Assembly: GCA_022729855.1 (NCBI GenBank)
Contig: DZBG01000018.1
Location: 1 to 34,581, forward strand
Direction of reading: 5' to 3'
Source of the DNA: Bdellovibrio sp.
GTDB lineage: Bacteria; Bdellovibrionota; Bacteriovoracia; Bacteriovoracales; Bacteriovoracaceae
DNA: 34,581 nt
Shown piece by piece: positions 15,825 to 22,031 of this stretch. The notes beneath the pieces were generated by a model, which was not told where the DNA came from, made no database searches, and was given only the letters and a program-made list of their open reading frames with translations. Position 1 is the stretch's first letter, and each line of letters starts with the position of its first letter. A program made the translations under genes and the position numbers.

Positions 15825-17129
15825 ATGCGAGCTCACTTACTTATCATCCTAGTTTTAGTCAATCTCGCCGCTGCCTGCTCAACTACTCAATCACCAACCA
15901 ACCGAGAAATTTCATCTGTACATACTGCTGAGAGCTTAGATCTTGAATCTTTTGCCATTGATGATGAAGAAGATGAGGCGCTCTCAAAAATCGCCCCGGC
16001 CAAGGAAACAATTTGGTCTCGTTGGTTTAATAAAAAGGTAGGCTTTTTTAATAACCCAGATCATGTCATTGCCTTTGATCTCATCAAACTTGCCAAAAAA
16101 ACGATCGATATTGAAATTTATGAAATGAAGGACCCAAAATTTAGAGACCTCATTATTGGAGCTCTCAAACGTGGTGTAAAAATTCGAATCATTAAGGATT
16201 CAAATACTGTGGCCGATAGCTGTGATGAACTCTCTGACACTAAAGAGCTCAGTAAACCGGACTGCATGAGAGAGAAGGCCTATGTTCAGGAGATTCTAAG
16301 TCTTGGGGCCCAATATGTTTATTTTAATAAAATGAAATTATGTGCAGAAGAAGGAAAGCGAGGGTGCTTTCAACACGGGAAGATGATTATTGTAGATAGT
16401 CGTTTTCTTCTTCTGAGTACAGGGAATTTCAATAGTTCTAGTTTTTGTAATCTAGAGACAAAACCCAGTAAATGTAACCGAGATTATTCTTATGTGACAA
16501 AAAATAAGAAAGTCATAAAATTCTTAGAAAGTGTTTTCAACAAAGATATCACACGAGAAAGATGGGATATGAAATCTGGTATCGCCAGTGGAAATATGGG
16601 AGTGACCGTGAGTCCATTTTCTCAACCACGCTTAGTTTCATTGATTAAATCGGCGAAGAGATCGGTGATTATTCAAAACCAATACCTAGAAGAGCCGGCC
16701 ATTAATGAGGCGATCAATGAGAAAGCCGCCGAGGGAGTTGAAGTAAAGGTTATGGTCTCTGATTTTTGCAATTATGGACGTCCTACCGCTTCAAAAAAGA
16801 AAAAAACTTTTAATATCTATACATCATTTGATAGCTCAGGTGTGAAAACCAAAATTTTCACTCCACAAATGAAAATTAATGGGAAGGCCGGTTATCTTCA
16901 TGCGAAGGCCATTGTCATTGATGAAAAACTTGCTTGGATTGGATCAGTCAATGGGTCGCTTAACTCGACAAGTAAGAACAGAGAGTTTGGGATTATTTTT
17001 AAAACGAAAAAAGCCGTAAGAAAACTTCTTAAGGTCATGAATGAGGACTTTAATCATCCCCAATCAATTTCTTGGGAGAGAAGTCTGAGTTGCGAGAAGC
17101 CAAGTTCAAATGAAGTCGAAGACGACTAA
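15825..17129 (+). CDS. phospholipase D / cardiolipin synthase-like lipoprotein
   Basis: Member of the HKD superfamily, 434 residues, predicted to cleave or transfer phosphodiesters at the cell envelope. The N-terminus is a lipoprotein signal ending at Cys18 (VNLAAAC), followed by an acidic linker (35-55). Two complete catalytic motifs are present: His184-Lys186-Asp191 in QHGKMIIVDS with downstream GNFNSSS, and His359-Lys361-Asp366 in LHAKAIVIDE with GSVNGSLNST. The extra cysteines between 133 and 218 suggest disulfides outside the cytoplasm. It lacks the membrane helices of cardiolipin synthases, so a secreted phospholipase or nuclease is as likely. It is convergent with the sphingolipid operon (4-base overlap), which makes a phospholipid or sphingomyelin headgroup role attractive but unproven. 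Confidence 0.82.
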   Translation: MRAHLLIILVLVNLAAACSTTQSPTNREISSVHTAESLDLESFAIDDEEDEALSKIAPAKETIWSRWFNKKVGFFNNPDHVIAFDLIKLAKKTIDIEIYEMKDPKFRDLIIGALKRGVKIRIIKDSNTVADSCDELSDTKELSKPDCMREKAYVQEILSLGAQYVYFNKMKLCAEEGKRGCFQHGKMIIVDSRFLLLSTGNFNSSSFCNLETKPSKCNRDYSYVTKNKKVIKFLESVFNKDITRERWDMKSGIASGNMGVTVSPFSQPRLVSLIKSAKRSVIIQNQYLEEPAINEAINEKAAEGVEVKVMVSDFCNYGRPTASKKKKTFNIYTSFDSSGVKTKIFTPQMKINGKAGYLHAKAIVIDEKLAWIGSVNGSLNSTSKNREFGIIFKTKKAVRKLLKVMNEDFNHPQSISWERSLSCEKPSSNEVEDD

Positions 17130-18406
17130 ACTCCAAAAATATCTTTTAGATGTGAATTCAAAAAACGACCATGGGGATCAAGTCCTTCTCTGATTGCTTT
17201 AAACTCATTCCATTTTGGATAAACCTTTTCAAAATCTTTATCTTTGAGAGAATGCCATTTCCCCCAATGAGGTCTTCCGCCATGATTTTTAAAAATGGCC
17301 TCAACTGTATTAAAATACGGTTTATAATCTTCTTGAATATAAGTGTGAATGGCCAAATAGACTGAGTCTCTTCCATAGGCCGGAGAAAGCCAAATATTAT
17401 CACCTTTGACAAATCTGATCTCAATGGGAAACAGAGTTTGATATTTATTTTTTTTGATCGCGGCCTTGATCTCTTCAAAGACATCATTAAACTTTTCAAG
17501 AGGGAAGTTGTACTCCATTTCCATGAAACGGATGCTTCTGTCAGTAGGAAAGGCCTTATGAGACCAGGCCACCCGAGAATGAGGAGTGACAAAATTTCTC
17601 ATAATCTTATCAATGCCATTATAAGTGTTCATTCTAAAGGCAATTTTATTTAATAATTCATAAAGATAATTTTCTAAAACCACATCATTAAATTTTTGGA
17701 GGAGTCCATTCTTGTGAACAGGTTCATCGGTTTTATCCATCATCTTAACCATGGACCAGTCACCTACAGGAAAATAAAACATTTCAAGATGTCGATGTTT
17801 TGCCAGTCTCTCGGAGAGTTTTAATAAAGCACGATCCATTTCTTCCGCAAAACTTGTGACCTTTAATTTATAGGCGGGCACTAATTTTAATGTTGCTTCA
17901 GCGATTAGTCCTAGTGAGCCAAAACTCACCCTTGCTGCTTGATAAAGATTTTCATCGTGAGCTGTATTGATAGTTTGTATTTCACCGCTGGCCAAAACCA
18001 TTTTTAACTCACGGGCCTGATTAGAAACTGATTGAAGACCAATTCCTGTTCCATGAGTTCCAGTACTCATGGCACCGGCGAGGGATTGTTTATCAATATC
18101 ACCTTGGTTTTCCATAGAAAAACCGTGAGCAAAAGCTTCGTCACCAAAACGCGAGAGTTTAGTTCCTGCAAAAGCTGTGACTGTGGAATTAGTTTGATCG
18201 CAGCGAGTGATTCCTTGCATCTCATTGAGATGAAAAAAATAATCATCAGAGGCGACAAGTCCAGTCCAAGAATGGCCTGAACCTATGGGGCGAATCGTTT
18301 TATTATTTTTACCCGCCTCATTCACCATGGCTTGAATATCGGAGATAGATTGAGGTTCAAAAATTTTTTCAGGATTAAAGTTTAAGTTTCCGGCCCAGTT
18401 TTTCAT
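17126..18406 (-). CDS. FAD-linked oxidase, D-arabinono-1,4-lactone / alditol oxidase family
   Basis: VAO-type flavoprotein of 426 residues that oxidises a primary alcohol or lactol and passes electrons to oxygen or another acceptor. The FAD domain has PIGSGHSWTG with His45 in the position that carries covalent FAD in this family, and GAMSTGTHGTG at 111-121. The substrate domain keeps residues known from alditol oxidase: Glu329 and Arg331 in FPIEIRFVKGDNIWLSP and Lys383 in RPHWGKWH. No signal peptide, so cytoplasmic. Last gene of a four-gene operon; its ATG overlaps the PLP-enzyme stop by 4 bases. In that context I infer that the substrate is an amino-alcohol or lipid alcohol released by the ceramidase and not a sugar lactone; this is a hypothesis. 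Confidence 0.82.
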   Translation of the reverse strand: MKNWAGNLNFNPEKIFEPQSISDIQAMVNEAGKNNKTIRPIGSGHSWTGLVASDDYFFHLNEMQGITRCDQTNSTVTAFAGTKLSRFGDEAFAHGFSMENQGDIDKQSLAGAMSTGTHGTGIGLQSVSNQARELKMVLASGEIQTINTAHDENLYQAARVSFGSLGLIAEATLKLVPAYKLKVTSFAEEMDRALLKLSERLAKHRHLEMFYFPVGDWSMVKMMDKTDEPVHKNGLLQKFNDVVLENYLYELLNKIAFRMNTYNGIDKIMRNFVTPHSRVAWSHKAFPTDRSIRFMEMEYNFPLEKFNDVFEEIKAAIKKNKYQTLFPIEIRFVKGDNIWLSPAYGRDSVYLAIHTYIQEDYKPYFNTVEAIFKNHGGRPHWGKWHSLKDKDFEKVYPKWNEFKAIREGLDPHGRFLNSHLKDIFGV

Positions 18407-19560
18407 AAAAATGCTTTACCTTCACCACGATAGGTTTTAACAATTTTCTCAATTCGATTTCCTCGGAGAAGATGAATCTCATTGAAGCGTTCACAAATTT
18501 CTCCCGCTTTTGCATGTCTGAAAAAAACAAGATCACCTAATTTCATTTTATAGGTAGATTCAAAAGGAGTTTGAACCTCTCCTGCTTGTTCATGTTTAAG
18601 AAGCTTAATTCCCTCTGGAAGAAAAGGCAGGGGAAGCTTAGAGGGATCTTGTGCCCCAGAGGCGATATAGCCTCCACCTAAAGCTGTATAAATATTTTCT
18701 TTAGGGTTTCTCACAATAGGGAGCGAGAAACACAGTGCCGGTTTAAGTTTAAAGTCTTGGTAGTCGTCAAAGAGATGAGGTGCGTAGATTCCTGACCCGA
18801 CTGTGACTTCTGTGACTGAGGCTTCTGTAGAAGTTGAATTGAGGCTTCCTGTTCCTCCACCATTCACAAAACGAAGCTCGTGATGGTGAGATTTAATCAA
18901 GTCCACAATAGCGGCACGTCGACTTTGAAGTTTTAAAATGGAGATCTTTTTGAGTGATCTAATGAGTGGTGATTTTAAATCAGTGACTCCGGCAATTTGC
19001 GCCTCATAACCCATGAGACCCACTAATTTTAAATATGGTGTTGTCGTGAGTGTTTTTAGAAAAATTTCGACTTGAGAGACTGTTTGGAGTGAAGAGCGAT
19101 AAACTCCAAATCTCAAACCTGGTAAATCAAGAGAGAGATCAATATCAACACAGATTTGAAAAACTCCATTCTCTGATTTTGCAATTTCATTCAGGGCCGT
19201 GAGATGCTCTGGTAGATCCACCATAAGAACGATCTCAGCAGGGTTTTTAGCGAGCTTTTTTAAAGCTTCTTTGTCAACGGTAGGATATCCCATGAGTATA
19301 TCCTTAAACCCCATATCTCTGAGCCAGAGGGCCTCATCTAATGTGAAACACATGAGTCCTTGAAAGCGACTATTTTTAGACTGGATCATTTTAATGATTT
19401 CAGTTGAGCGAAGTGATTTTGTGGCCAGACGAATATTTTTTGGCCCAGCATTTTCTAGGGCCCAGTCAATATTGGATTCAAAAAAATCCATATTCAAAAT
19501 GATGGCAGGGGCTGGTGAGTGCTGAAGGGCCTCGGTATAATTGAGATAAATATTTTTCAT
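18403..19560 (-). CDS. fold-type III PLP enzyme, D-threonine aldolase / D-serine dehydratase-like
   Basis: Cytoplasmic PLP enzyme of 385 residues with an alanine-racemase-like barrel (about 15-255) and a C-terminal beta domain. Lys48 in RLATKSLRS is the expected Schiff-base lysine, and FVNGGGTGS is the phosphate-binding loop. Family members cleave D-beta-hydroxy-alpha-amino acids to glycine and an aldehyde, or dehydrate D-serine. The usual C-terminal metal pair HxD/HxC is not obvious: the matching region reads RHAKAGEICERFNE with His349 and Cys356, so metal use may differ. The gene overlaps its neighbours by 4 bases on each side, between the sphingomyelinase-like and the FAD oxidase genes. 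The substrate is unknown; a long-chain D-amino acid derived from sphingosine is my inference. Confidence 0.78.
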   Translation of the reverse strand: MKNIYLNYTEALQHSPAPAIILNMDFFESNIDWALENAGPKNIRLATKSLRSTEIIKMIQSKNSRFQGLMCFTLDEALWLRDMGFKDILMGYPTVDKEALKKLAKNPAEIVLMVDLPEHLTALNEIAKSENGVFQICVDIDLSLDLPGLRFGVYRSSLQTVSQVEIFLKTLTTTPYLKLVGLMGYEAQIAGVTDLKSPLIRSLKKISILKLQSRRAAIVDLIKSHHHELRFVNGGGTGSLNSTSTEASVTEVTVGSGIYAPHLFDDYQDFKLKPALCFSLPIVRNPKENIYTALGGGYIASGAQDPSKLPLPFLPEGIKLLKHEQAGEVQTPFESTYKMKLGDLVFFRHAKAGEICERFNEIHLLRGNRIEKIVKTYRGEGKAFL

Positions 19561-20417
19561 AATGAGATCTTGGCCTCAATCGGTCTGTGATCAGAAAGAT
19601 AACATTCTTTATTTTTCTTAAAGATACCTTTAAATTCAAGAGCATTTCTGTAGATCACAACGGCCTTAGATTGGTGTGGGTCTAACCAAACATGATCTAG
19701 CCATTGAGGAGTATTATCTTTTCCTGGTTTTTTATAGCAATCAATGGTGTATCCATTAGTTGCAGGTTGAGAGCTATTAAGTGGGGCAGATGACATATTT
19801 AAAATTTGCAAAGCTTGGTCATACTCGCCTGGAATTAATCCATCAATATTTAGATCACCCACTAAAACCTGGGGAATATCTGCGTTGAAGTTTGCTGCAA
19901 AAAGTTTTTGAATTTGGTGAAGTTGAAAAACGCGTGTTTCTACTGCCTTCTGATCTTCCCATGCTTGCAGGTGAGTGGTGGCAATTTGAATTTTCTTTTT
20001 ATCAGGCATGGTTACTTCAACGAGGATAACACCCTTAGCAGCAAAACAATCAGTGTGAACACATTTTTTATAGTAATCTTTCCCTATCACTTTAATGGAG
20101 TAACGAGAAAAAACAAGAAGACCACTTCCTAAAAAATGCGGAAACTTTTTATCACTATCAAGGGCCGCATGGAAAGGATGACTTCTTTTAAAGGCCTTTG
20201 TGAGTTTCTTTTTTGTCAGTCCTGCAAAAGCCTCTTGGAAAAAATAGATATCATGACCTGTAGTGGGCAGAAGCTCAGTCATTAATTTGGTTCTGGTTCT
20301 TTGCAAAGAAAAATTGATTGGTTTTGGGAGCATAAAAAGATTCCATGATAAAATCTTTATCTCTGACGCCTGGGCCAGAAAGGGAAAGAGAATCAAGGCG
20401 AATAAGATTTTTTTCAT
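19557..20417 (-). CDS. secreted sphingomyelinase C-like phosphodiesterase (EEP superfamily)
   Basis: Endonuclease/exonuclease/phosphatase-fold hydrolase of 286 residues with a cleavable signal peptide (MKKILFALILFPFLAQA). Metal and catalytic residues of the fold are all visible: Asn26 in LSWNLF, Glu62 in FFQEAF, His149 in TTHLQAW, Asp188 and Asn190 in VGDLNIDG, Asp241-His242 and Asp276-His277 in LSDHRPIEA. The insert with paired cysteines and CFAAKGVILVEV resembles neutral sphingomyelinases more than nucleases. It would release ceramide and a phospho-headgroup from sphingomyelin or a related phosphosphingolipid in the periplasm or outside. It starts at the base after the ceramidase stop codon and overlaps the next gene by 4. 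A nuclease or phosphoinositide activity cannot be excluded by sequence alone. Confidence 0.8.
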   Translation of the reverse strand: MKKILFALILFPFLAQASEIKILSWNLFMLPKPINFSLQRTRTKLMTELLPTTGHDIYFFQEAFAGLTKKKLTKAFKRSHPFHAALDSDKKFPHFLGSGLLVFSRYSIKVIGKDYYKKCVHTDCFAAKGVILVEVTMPDKKKIQIATTHLQAWEDQKAVETRVFQLHQIQKLFAANFNADIPQVLVGDLNIDGLIPGEYDQALQILNMSSAPLNSSQPATNGYTIDCYKKPGKDNTPQWLDHVWLDPHQSKAVVIYRNALEFKGIFKKNKECYLSDHRPIEAKISL

Positions 20418-22031
20418 TTATTGCTCGTTTGTTCTTCTTGCTAGCTCTTTTGGCGGATAGATAAAAGAGGGCAGATCGGTGATTATATTTTTTTGCTGAA
20501 TTGATTTCGCGAGTTCAATAAAACTATAGATGATCGCCTCTAAAGTATTGCGCCCATAAACTGTATGGCCGCCTTCATAATACTGGAGATCATATTCTTC
20601 TGGAGTAGTGATATATCCCATATAGGCATTGGCATAAGAACAAATAATAATTTCTTTGGTTTTTAACTCTGTTTCTAAGGCAAGTTTAAGCCTTTCCGCT
20701 GCTTGAGTTGTTATCTCACCTGGAACACCAATTAAAAAAATATTTCCAAGTTTGATTATTTGAGAGGGCAGTATTGGCGGAATCCACGGAAGAGTATCAA
20801 TGGAATTCTTCTTTGCTGCTTTAATAAAATTACCCACCACTGGATCAGGAATATGAGGAAGCTTTTTCCAAAGGGATAAAGGAATTCCAATAAACTCACC
20901 TGTGCGGTGATCAAGTAGAATATCTTTCTGACCTTGGGCCTCATAAAAAGATTTATTCTTATCACTCGCAAATAATAGTTTTGAAGTCTTAAGACTTTGA
21001 GAAAGGATTCTCAAAATGAATCCTAGTGTTCTAGGTATTCCTGGGCCTTCCAAAGTTCCTTCAAAAAAGCTGACTCCGTGGGCAGGGAAAGCAGCACGCT
21101 TTGTTATATCGTGATAGAGATGGTGACAAGTCACCTCACCTTCAACAATAAGATGCTCTTTAATAAGTTCTGAGGCATTGGCCTGAAGTTCGCCGTTGTA
21201 GTGGGCATTTTCGTATTGATTTGAAAATTTTCCTCTCATTCTTTTAAGTTTTTTATCCCAAATATAATTGGGAGAAACATCCCCAGCTGCGGCTTGTGCA
21301 AAGATCGCCATGGCCCCATGATTTTTTTTCTCAATGAGAGAAGCCGCTACACCTTTATTGTCATGGTGAATTCTTTGATTAAAACTTGAGATACTTGTGG
21401 CGTGTACTCCGAACCAATTAAAATGAACACGAAGTTTACCGTTCTGATCATAGATATTGAGTCCTTGCATTTGGCGGTTCACGGCCAAATGCGATTCATC
21501 CAAATCAAGTTTTTTGACTTCAGGATTATTGAGATAGGCCTTAAGGGACCTATTAAAGGCCACTTCTTTATCTGGAGAAATAGAGTGAGAACCAAGTTTT
21601 AGAACAGACGGGGCGATGGTTTTTGAGGCCATGAGAACTGCTTCGACAACACTTGAAACCACGGCCTCAAATATTTTGGTTCTGAAATCTGGGATCGTAA
21701 AATTATAAAATGGGTAATGTGTATAGCCACCAGGGGCCGAGTGCGTGTGTTGTGAGCACATTAAAATATTGGCCATAGTCAGATTCCAATGAGGAAAATG
21801 AGCACTCAGTCTATTTGTGACTTCTTCTTTAACTGCAATAGAAACAAAGGCGAGTTCCACATTAATAAAAATAAAGGCTGACTGAGATGTGTTTTGAAAA
21901 ATCACAGCACGCGCATAAAGGGGAGTGGCCACTTCTTTCACGATATTATGAGGCTGCCCGTAGCCCATCATTCCAATTCCTGGAATAAAGCAGGGGATCT
22001 CAGTTTTAGCAAAACCGACTTGCATACTCAT
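20418..22031 (-). CDS. neutral/alkaline ceramidase
   Basis: Hydrolyses the amide of ceramide to a sphingoid base and a fatty acid. Signature elements: NVELAFVS, metal histidines in MCSQHTHSAPGG (95-97) and FGVHATS (His210), catalytic Ser253 in AAAGDVSPN, IGVPGEITT and the Tyr-containing GYITTPEEYDLQYYEGG. Length 537 is shorter than the roughly 640-670 of Pseudomonas-type neutral ceramidase. The protein ends about 60 residues after the YYEGG motif, so the C-terminal beta domain seems to be missing. No signal peptide is evident, unlike the secreted family norm, which would place it in the cytoplasm. First gene of the operon; the ATG at 22031 and another at 22025 (MQVGF) are both possible, with AGAAG upstream. 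Confidence 0.87.
   Translation of the reverse strand: MSMQVGFAKTEIPCFIPGIGMMGYGQPHNIVKEVATPLYARAVIFQNTSQSAFIFINVELAFVSIAVKEEVTNRLSAHFPHWNLTMANILMCSQHTHSAPGGYTHYPFYNFTIPDFRTKIFEAVVSSVVEAVLMASKTIAPSVLKLGSHSISPDKEVAFNRSLKAYLNNPEVKKLDLDESHLAVNRQMQGLNIYDQNGKLRVHFNWFGVHATSISSFNQRIHHDNKGVAASLIEKKNHGAMAIFAQAAAGDVSPNYIWDKKLKRMRGKFSNQYENAHYNGELQANASELIKEHLIVEGEVTCHHLYHDITKRAAFPAHGVSFFEGTLEGPGIPRTLGFILRILSQSLKTSKLLFASDKNKSFYEAQGQKDILLDHRTGEFIGIPLSLWKKLPHIPDPVVGNFIKAAKKNSIDTLPWIPPILPSQIIKLGNIFLIGVPGEITTQAAERLKLALETELKTKEIIICSYANAYMGYITTPEEYDLQYYEGGHTVYGRNTLEAIIYSFIELAKSIQQKNIITDLPSFIYPPKELARRTNEQ

Follow-up and report, generated by a model that had tools for sequence, protein, structure and literature searches.

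A ceramidase-linked operon of Bdellovibrio sp. that may degrade sphingolipids by a variant of the Pseudomonas SphC/SphD route

Overview

The window analyzed here, a stretch of 34,581 nucleotides of Bdellovibrio sp. DNA, contains a four-gene operon that appears to be a well-conserved unit of sphingolipid degradation, with a downstream pair that is best described as a variant of the SphC/SphD module and for which a sphingoid substrate is predicted. We consider it moderately probable that the operon breaks down external sphingolipids by a cytoplasmic, O2-using and ceramidase-linked version of the SphC/SphD route that has been proposed in Pseudomonas. The four protein families, their active-site motifs, the conserved linkage of the genes and the homology to SphC-type proteins are read directly from the sequences. 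In the scheme that we infer from them, including the substrates, the order of the steps, an acid or an aldehyde as intermediate, the retro-aldol reaction and the compartments, the secreted EEP enzyme would strip the phospho-head group from an external sphingolipid and the ceramidase would free the sphingoid base. The ALO-type flavoenzyme would then use O2 to oxidize the C1 primary alcohol of the base to a 2-amino-3-hydroxy aldehyde or acid, which the PLP enzyme would cleave between C2 and C3 to give a long-chain aldehyde together with glycine (or with an aminoaldehyde).

Organization of the operon and assignment of its protein families

Four minus-strand ORFs are transcribed in the order CER, EEP, PLP and FAD. 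ORF analysis of the window gives 0 bases between CER and EEP and overlaps of 4 bases at both the EEP/PLP and PLP/FAD junctions, exactly as the initial annotation had described them. The genes and the residues discussed below are as follows.

20418..22031, minus strand: CER, neutral/alkaline ceramidase of 537 aa (PF04734)
19557..20417, minus strand: EEP-family phosphodiesterase of 286 aa, sphingomyelinase-like and predicted to be secreted (Exo_endo_phos)
18403..19560, minus strand: PLP, fold-III PLP enzyme of 385 aa, proposed aldolase on an oxidized sphingoid base (Ala_racemase_N)
19417..19419, minus strand: K48 of PLP, the predicted Schiff-base PLP lysine, a Lys in 102 of the 102 relatives that have a residue there
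18490..18519, minus strand: C-terminal motif RHAKAGEICE of PLP, with K351 and E354 in 103/103 relatives and R348 in 102/103
17126..18406, minus strand: FAD, VAO/ALO-family flavoprotein of 426 aa, proposed sphingoid-base primary-alcohol oxidase (PF04030 and PF01565, ALO and FAD_binding_4)
18272..18274, minus strand: His45 in the GSGHSW motif of FAD, the predicted site of covalent FAD attachment, aligned with GSGHSF of 2vfr
18101..18103, minus strand: Gly102 of FAD, at the position of the Ala113 gatekeeper of galactonolactone dehydrogenase, by alignment to the wild-type (Ala) and A113G chains

A PLD-family protein is encoded convergently at 15825-17129 on the plus strand, its end overlapping the end of the FAD gene by 4 bases.

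Comparison with solved relatives located the known active-site motifs in CER, EEP and FAD. CER matches PF04734 at 288 bits and the Pseudomonas ceramidase 2zws at an E value of 1e-57, and it carries both the zinc ligands and the catalytic serine motif of the neutral ceramidases (QHTHS at 94, VHATS at 209, AAGDVSPN at 248, PGEITT at 437 and YANAY at 466). EEP is the only one of the four proteins with an obvious signal peptide, its N-terminus MKKILFALILFPFLAQA resembling a Sec signal; CER is probably cytoplasmic because it has none, and neither FAD nor PLP bears an export signal. The EEP catalytic motifs (QEAF, THLQ, GDLN, LDH and SDHRP) were found, and the protein matches the sphingomyelinase 1zwx at an E value of 7e-7. 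As its score against the sphingomyelinase model TIGR03395 is 54 bits, below the cut-off of 248, we call it sphingomyelinase-like, and the sphingomyelinase label itself is tentative.

FAD scores 389.6 bits against TIGR01679, above the cut-off for that model, and the solved structures nearest to it are alditol (xylitol) oxidase (2vfr) and galactonolactone dehydrogenase. The residues expected of the VAO/ALO family are present, namely the FAD-binding His, the catalytic E-x-R and K, and a Gly gatekeeper; His45 is kept in every relative for which that alignment column is filled.

The PLP protein is an Ala_racemase_N enzyme with weak similarity to the beta-hydroxyaspartate and D-threonine aldolases (Pfam/NCBIfam). 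Its AF2 model (pLDDT 93.5) best matches the beta-hydroxyaspartate aldolase 6qkb and the D-threonine aldolase 4v15 in the PDB, with which it shares the fold-III PLP fold at a TM score of ~0.8, and the fold also resembles those of D-serine dehydratases and alanine racemases. The D-threonine-aldolase-like character assigned by the initial annotation thus holds for the fold and the invariant PLP lysine. The enzyme is nevertheless not a canonical member of that class: its identity to 4v15 and 6qkb is only 16-21%, and the metal-binding PF14031 domain was found in 0 of the 24 members of the PLP family tested, whereas a control fold-III homologue in locus L166 does have it. Where D-threonine aldolases have their metal domain, the family has instead the RHAKAGEICE segment with its invariant R..K..E motif. 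PLP may be a metal-independent aldolase, with a racemase or dehydratase as the less likely reading.

The stereochemistry proposed in the initial annotation is correct under the CIP rules. At C2 of (2S,3R)-sphingosine, priority goes to C3 (O,C,H) over C1 (O,H,H). Oxidation of C1 to (O,O,O) reverses this ranking, and the unchanged arrangement at C2 is then named 2R. By this reasoning, oxidized sphingosine would be an amino acid of the D type, its C2 and C3 standing in the allo (2R,3R) relation.

Conservation of the operon and its linkage to ceramidase

All four genes occur in the same order in two relatives, L031 and L034, at ~40-58% identity to the window, and because the order is kept at this distance it is, by these comparisons, not due to chance. 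A third relative, L033, has CER, EEP and PLP linked and its ALO homologue elsewhere, on a separate contig; linkage of EEP was seen only in these three close relatives. Within the phylum, the PLP gene was found in 25 of the 192 genomes sampled. Ceramidase is present in 12 of these 25 as compared to 11 of the 167 PLP-less genomes (Fisher 9e-7, a test that ignores shared ancestry), and in 11 of the 12 it adjoins the PLP gene. An ALO homologue (at least 150 bits) is encoded by 11 genomes of the phylum, 11/11 of which also have PLP, in a test that again takes no account of phylogeny.

A single-sequence scan of genome contigs returned 0 relatives; an alignment-based scan returned 80 loci out of at least 573 relatives, and the locus survey came to 103 PLP loci in total. 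In 21 of the 103, a ceramidase gene is found no more than 7 kb away from PLP. These loci represent three or more phyla (among them Bdellovibrionota, Bacteroidota and Nitrospirota), and parsimony requires 13 changes in the ceramidase state on the PLP tree, on which many forks are open. Divergent layouts of the two genes (L038, L042, L043 and L045) occur as well as co-directional ones, so that more than one arrangement unites them. Two loci from Flavobacteriales MAGs show CER and PLP followed by a gene for a caspase-domain/TPR protein (L076) or a related gene (L078).

No ceramidase is found near 44 of the 51 ALO/PLP loci. A search of 39 ALO-pair genomes found a strong ceramidase elsewhere in 7, a weak PF04734 match in 6 and none in 26, and the ALO-pair genomes of the Bacillota have almost no ceramidase. 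These counts rule out that only bacteria with a ceramidase carry the pair. The initial annotation had suggested a survey of co-occurrence, with the proviso that a pair existing mainly without ceramidase, in organisms with no access to sphingolipids, would speak against its proposal; the linkage in several phyla favors that proposal, and the ceramidase-less loci, along with the lack of ceramidase in most of the genomes checked, weigh in part against it.

Because pairs without ceramidase are common, the substrate of the pair may be a free sphingoid base or some other amino diol. Carried further, this would make ALO and PLP a general module for some other 2-amino-1,3-diol or amino alcohol, one that in the window merely follows ceramidase or handles a non-sphingolipid, ceramide-like lipid. 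The wide distribution of ceramidase-less pairs (in Paenibacillus, Bacillus, Chloroflexota and a Heimdallarchaeota MAG) is in keeping with such a module, which we regard as unlikely but still the strongest of the alternatives: the ceramidase linkage recurs across phyla, the Pseudomonas homologues belong to the sphingosine regulon (PMC3900636), and free sphingoid bases of the soil could account for the pairs that have no ceramidase.

Relationship to the SphBCD system of Pseudomonas

The SphR regulon of Pseudomonas aeruginosa was defined by LaBauve and Wargo in 2014 (PMC3900636). The sphBCD genes are induced by sphingosine and SphR together with a ceramidase (PMC3900636, PMC5150637), and the annotations of sphC and sphD name the same Pfam families as those of the window FAD and PLP proteins (PMC5150637). 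The oxidation and PLP-dependent cleavage steps envisioned here were proposed for SphC and SphD in that 2014 study (PMC3900636), and for this reason the statement in the initial annotation that no pathway of this form had been described is incorrect; the idea of the pathway is plausible but not new. More recently, sphBC were found to be required for the loss of sphingosine in P. aeruginosa and sphD to be dispensable (DiGianivittorio 2025, PMC11893366), and several attempts at identifying the SphBC-dependent product of sphingosine failed (PMC11893366).

Among the surveyed loci, L183-L188 are ALO and PLP pairs of the Pseudomonadaceae, with a cytochrome c in L183-L186 and L188 and an AraC regulator confirmed in L183. 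Their architecture, and the close similarity of the published SphC Tat signal (PMC6085387) to that of L184, lead us to identify them as the probable sphBCD loci. Their SphC-type flavoproteins match the window FAD protein at 238-302 bits and are clearly homologous to it. The SphD-type proteins have only ~24-27% identity to the window PLP protein over the aligned part and form a distant branch of the PLP family; a closer relationship to SphD was looked for and not found.

The SphR regulon and the window have in common an ALO-family flavoprotein, which in the window adjoins the Ala_racemase_N enzyme, an association with neutral ceramidase, and the proposed two-step chemistry. The differences lie in location and linkage: SphC is a periplasmic (Tat) protein whose partner is the cytochrome c SphB, whereas the window pair is without the signals for export and no cytochrome is encoded in the window operon; cerN is unlinked in P. 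aeruginosa, whereas the window ceramidase and EEP share one operon with the pair.

The oxygen gatekeeper and exchange of the oxidizing partner

In galactonolactone dehydrogenase, Ala113 blocks access of O2, and the A113G replacement converts the enzyme to an oxidase (PMC11099136). Because the window flavoenzyme has Gly at this position, it is predicted to use O2, whereas SphC would hand its electrons to cytochrome c. Outside the Pseudomonas set, 53 PLP-linked ALO proteins have Gly (52 of them) or Cys (1) as this residue, as against Ala or Ser in five cytochrome-linked Pseudomonas SphC-type proteins. It is Pro in L187, and L191 and L193 have Gly and neither a Tat signal nor a nearby cytochrome.

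The oxidizing partner itself is not constant. Beside the PLP gene, the 103 loci have ALO in 51 cases, a GMC oxidoreductase in 16 and both in 0 (p 8e-6), and the starred branches of the PLP tree force at least 5 changes in the GMC state. Several of the loci that lack ALO combine the GMC oxidoreductase with a small companion protein (no Pfam match) and often with an aldehyde dehydrogenase, the latter being present in 10 of the 16 GMC loci. The companion is fused to aldehyde dehydrogenase in L045:5951-7894 and L050:9173-11110. In these neighborhoods the ALO flavoprotein is thus replaced by a GMC oxidoreductase, which is frequently accompanied by aldehyde dehydrogenase. As a broader and more tentative proposal, to which we give somewhat less than even weight, a phosphate-independent route for sphingoid bases may exist across many phyla, its fixed core being a new class of fold-III PLP aldolases that need no metal, around which the alcohol-oxidizing flavoenzyme has repeatedly been swapped (ALO working with O2 or with a cytochrome, or else GMC together with aldehyde dehydrogenase). 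What is new relative to the Pseudomonas work is the ceramidase linkage in 21 of 103 loci, the exchange of ALO and GMC, and the contrast of Gly with Ala/Ser at the gatekeeper.

In these loci PLP is what stays the same and the flavoenzyme is what is exchanged, which argues against detoxification of sphingoid bases, and not feeding, as the role of these genes. Under such a scheme only the flavoenzyme would matter and the PLP enzyme would clear a reactive aldehyde, as might be thought from P. aeruginosa, where sphBC protect against sphingosine and sphD can be dispensed with (PMC11893366); the ties to ceramidase and to a secreted hydrolase point to catabolism, and we find detoxification quite improbable. 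Least probable are independent functions, PLP as a racemase or dehydratase of small D-amino acids and the flavoenzyme as an alditol/aldonolactone oxidase, which would suit the family annotations, the nearest characterized flavoenzyme (2vfr) and the fold matches to D-serine dehydratases and alanine racemases but not the conserved association, across phyla, of the PLP gene with ceramidase and with either ALO or GMC, nor the mutual exclusion of ALO and GMC oxidases.

S1P lyase, the source of sphingolipid and other known routes

Sphingolipid degradation by way of the ALO and PLP pair, the reading that we prefer, has to be set beside the sphingosine kinase/S1P lyase pathway, which likewise converts a sphingoid base to a long-chain aldehyde but requires phosphorylation and yields phosphoethanolamine; the window route is proposed to do without either. 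The initial annotation had the pair bypassing both kinase and lyase. The genome of the window has no DAGK-type kinase above the cut-off, though it encodes, at an unlinked site, a homologue of S1P lyase (a 400-bit match to S1P lyase 1; 8ayf, 4q6r), and a bypass of the lyase cannot be claimed for this reason. Nor is the pair a general replacement for S1P lyase, a role ruled out by their co-occurrence in the phylum (lyase in 14 of 25 PLP-bearing versus 16 of 167 PLP-less genomes). Of the initial annotation, the assignment to sphingolipid degradation is thus supported, by a gene context that links PLP to ALO or GMC and, in several phyla, to ceramidase, and by the place of the Pseudomonas homologues in a sphingosine-induced regulon; its novelty, the lyase bypass and a reading of PLP as a canonical D-threonine aldolase are not supported.

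Upstream of the lyase homologue of the window genome (L217:8605-11019, G000:C130) lie a TonB gene and two small genes, both of the latter being conserved in L227, L228, L229 and L231. In ceramidase-bearing, PLP-less genomes of a related genus (g41), an FGGY-family carbohydrate kinase lies beside S1P lyase (L196:7907-12717, L198:3799-8625, L204:1386-4480 and L220:4797-7882); the lyase of L196 scores ~600 bits to 3mad, and ceramidase is also there in L196 and L198. As a candidate sphingoid-base kinase, the FGGY protein would come from an unexpected family.

Among the named PF00155 matches of the window genome (a 99% complete draft with seven matches, part of them run through NCBIfam), there is no alpha-oxoamine-synthase/SPT candidate. 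An SPT-like enzyme being absent from these matches, synthesis by the cell itself was rejected as the source of sphingolipid, and the result is consistent with an external substrate.

A close chemical parallel is found in chloramphenicol catabolism (chdABCD/capO; PMC13400229, PMC9590159), in which a primary-alcohol oxidase and an aldolase act on a 2-amino-1,3-diol. There, a GMC oxidase, ALDH, an amide hydrolase and a threonine aldolase process an N-acyl 2-amino-1,3-diol (PMC13400229); the system differs in its aromatic substrate, its annotated L-threonine aldolase and its different amide hydrolase.

Implications

The cytoplasmic and apparently O2-using pair of this ceramidase operon would offer an easier biochemical entry than SphBC, with H2O2 and glycine as the read-out. 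If the proposal is true, bacteria would possess a second way of turning sphingoid bases into long-chain aldehydes, one that needs neither the kinase nor S1P lyase, and a large and widely distributed PLP family, known until now by its fold alone, would gain a function.
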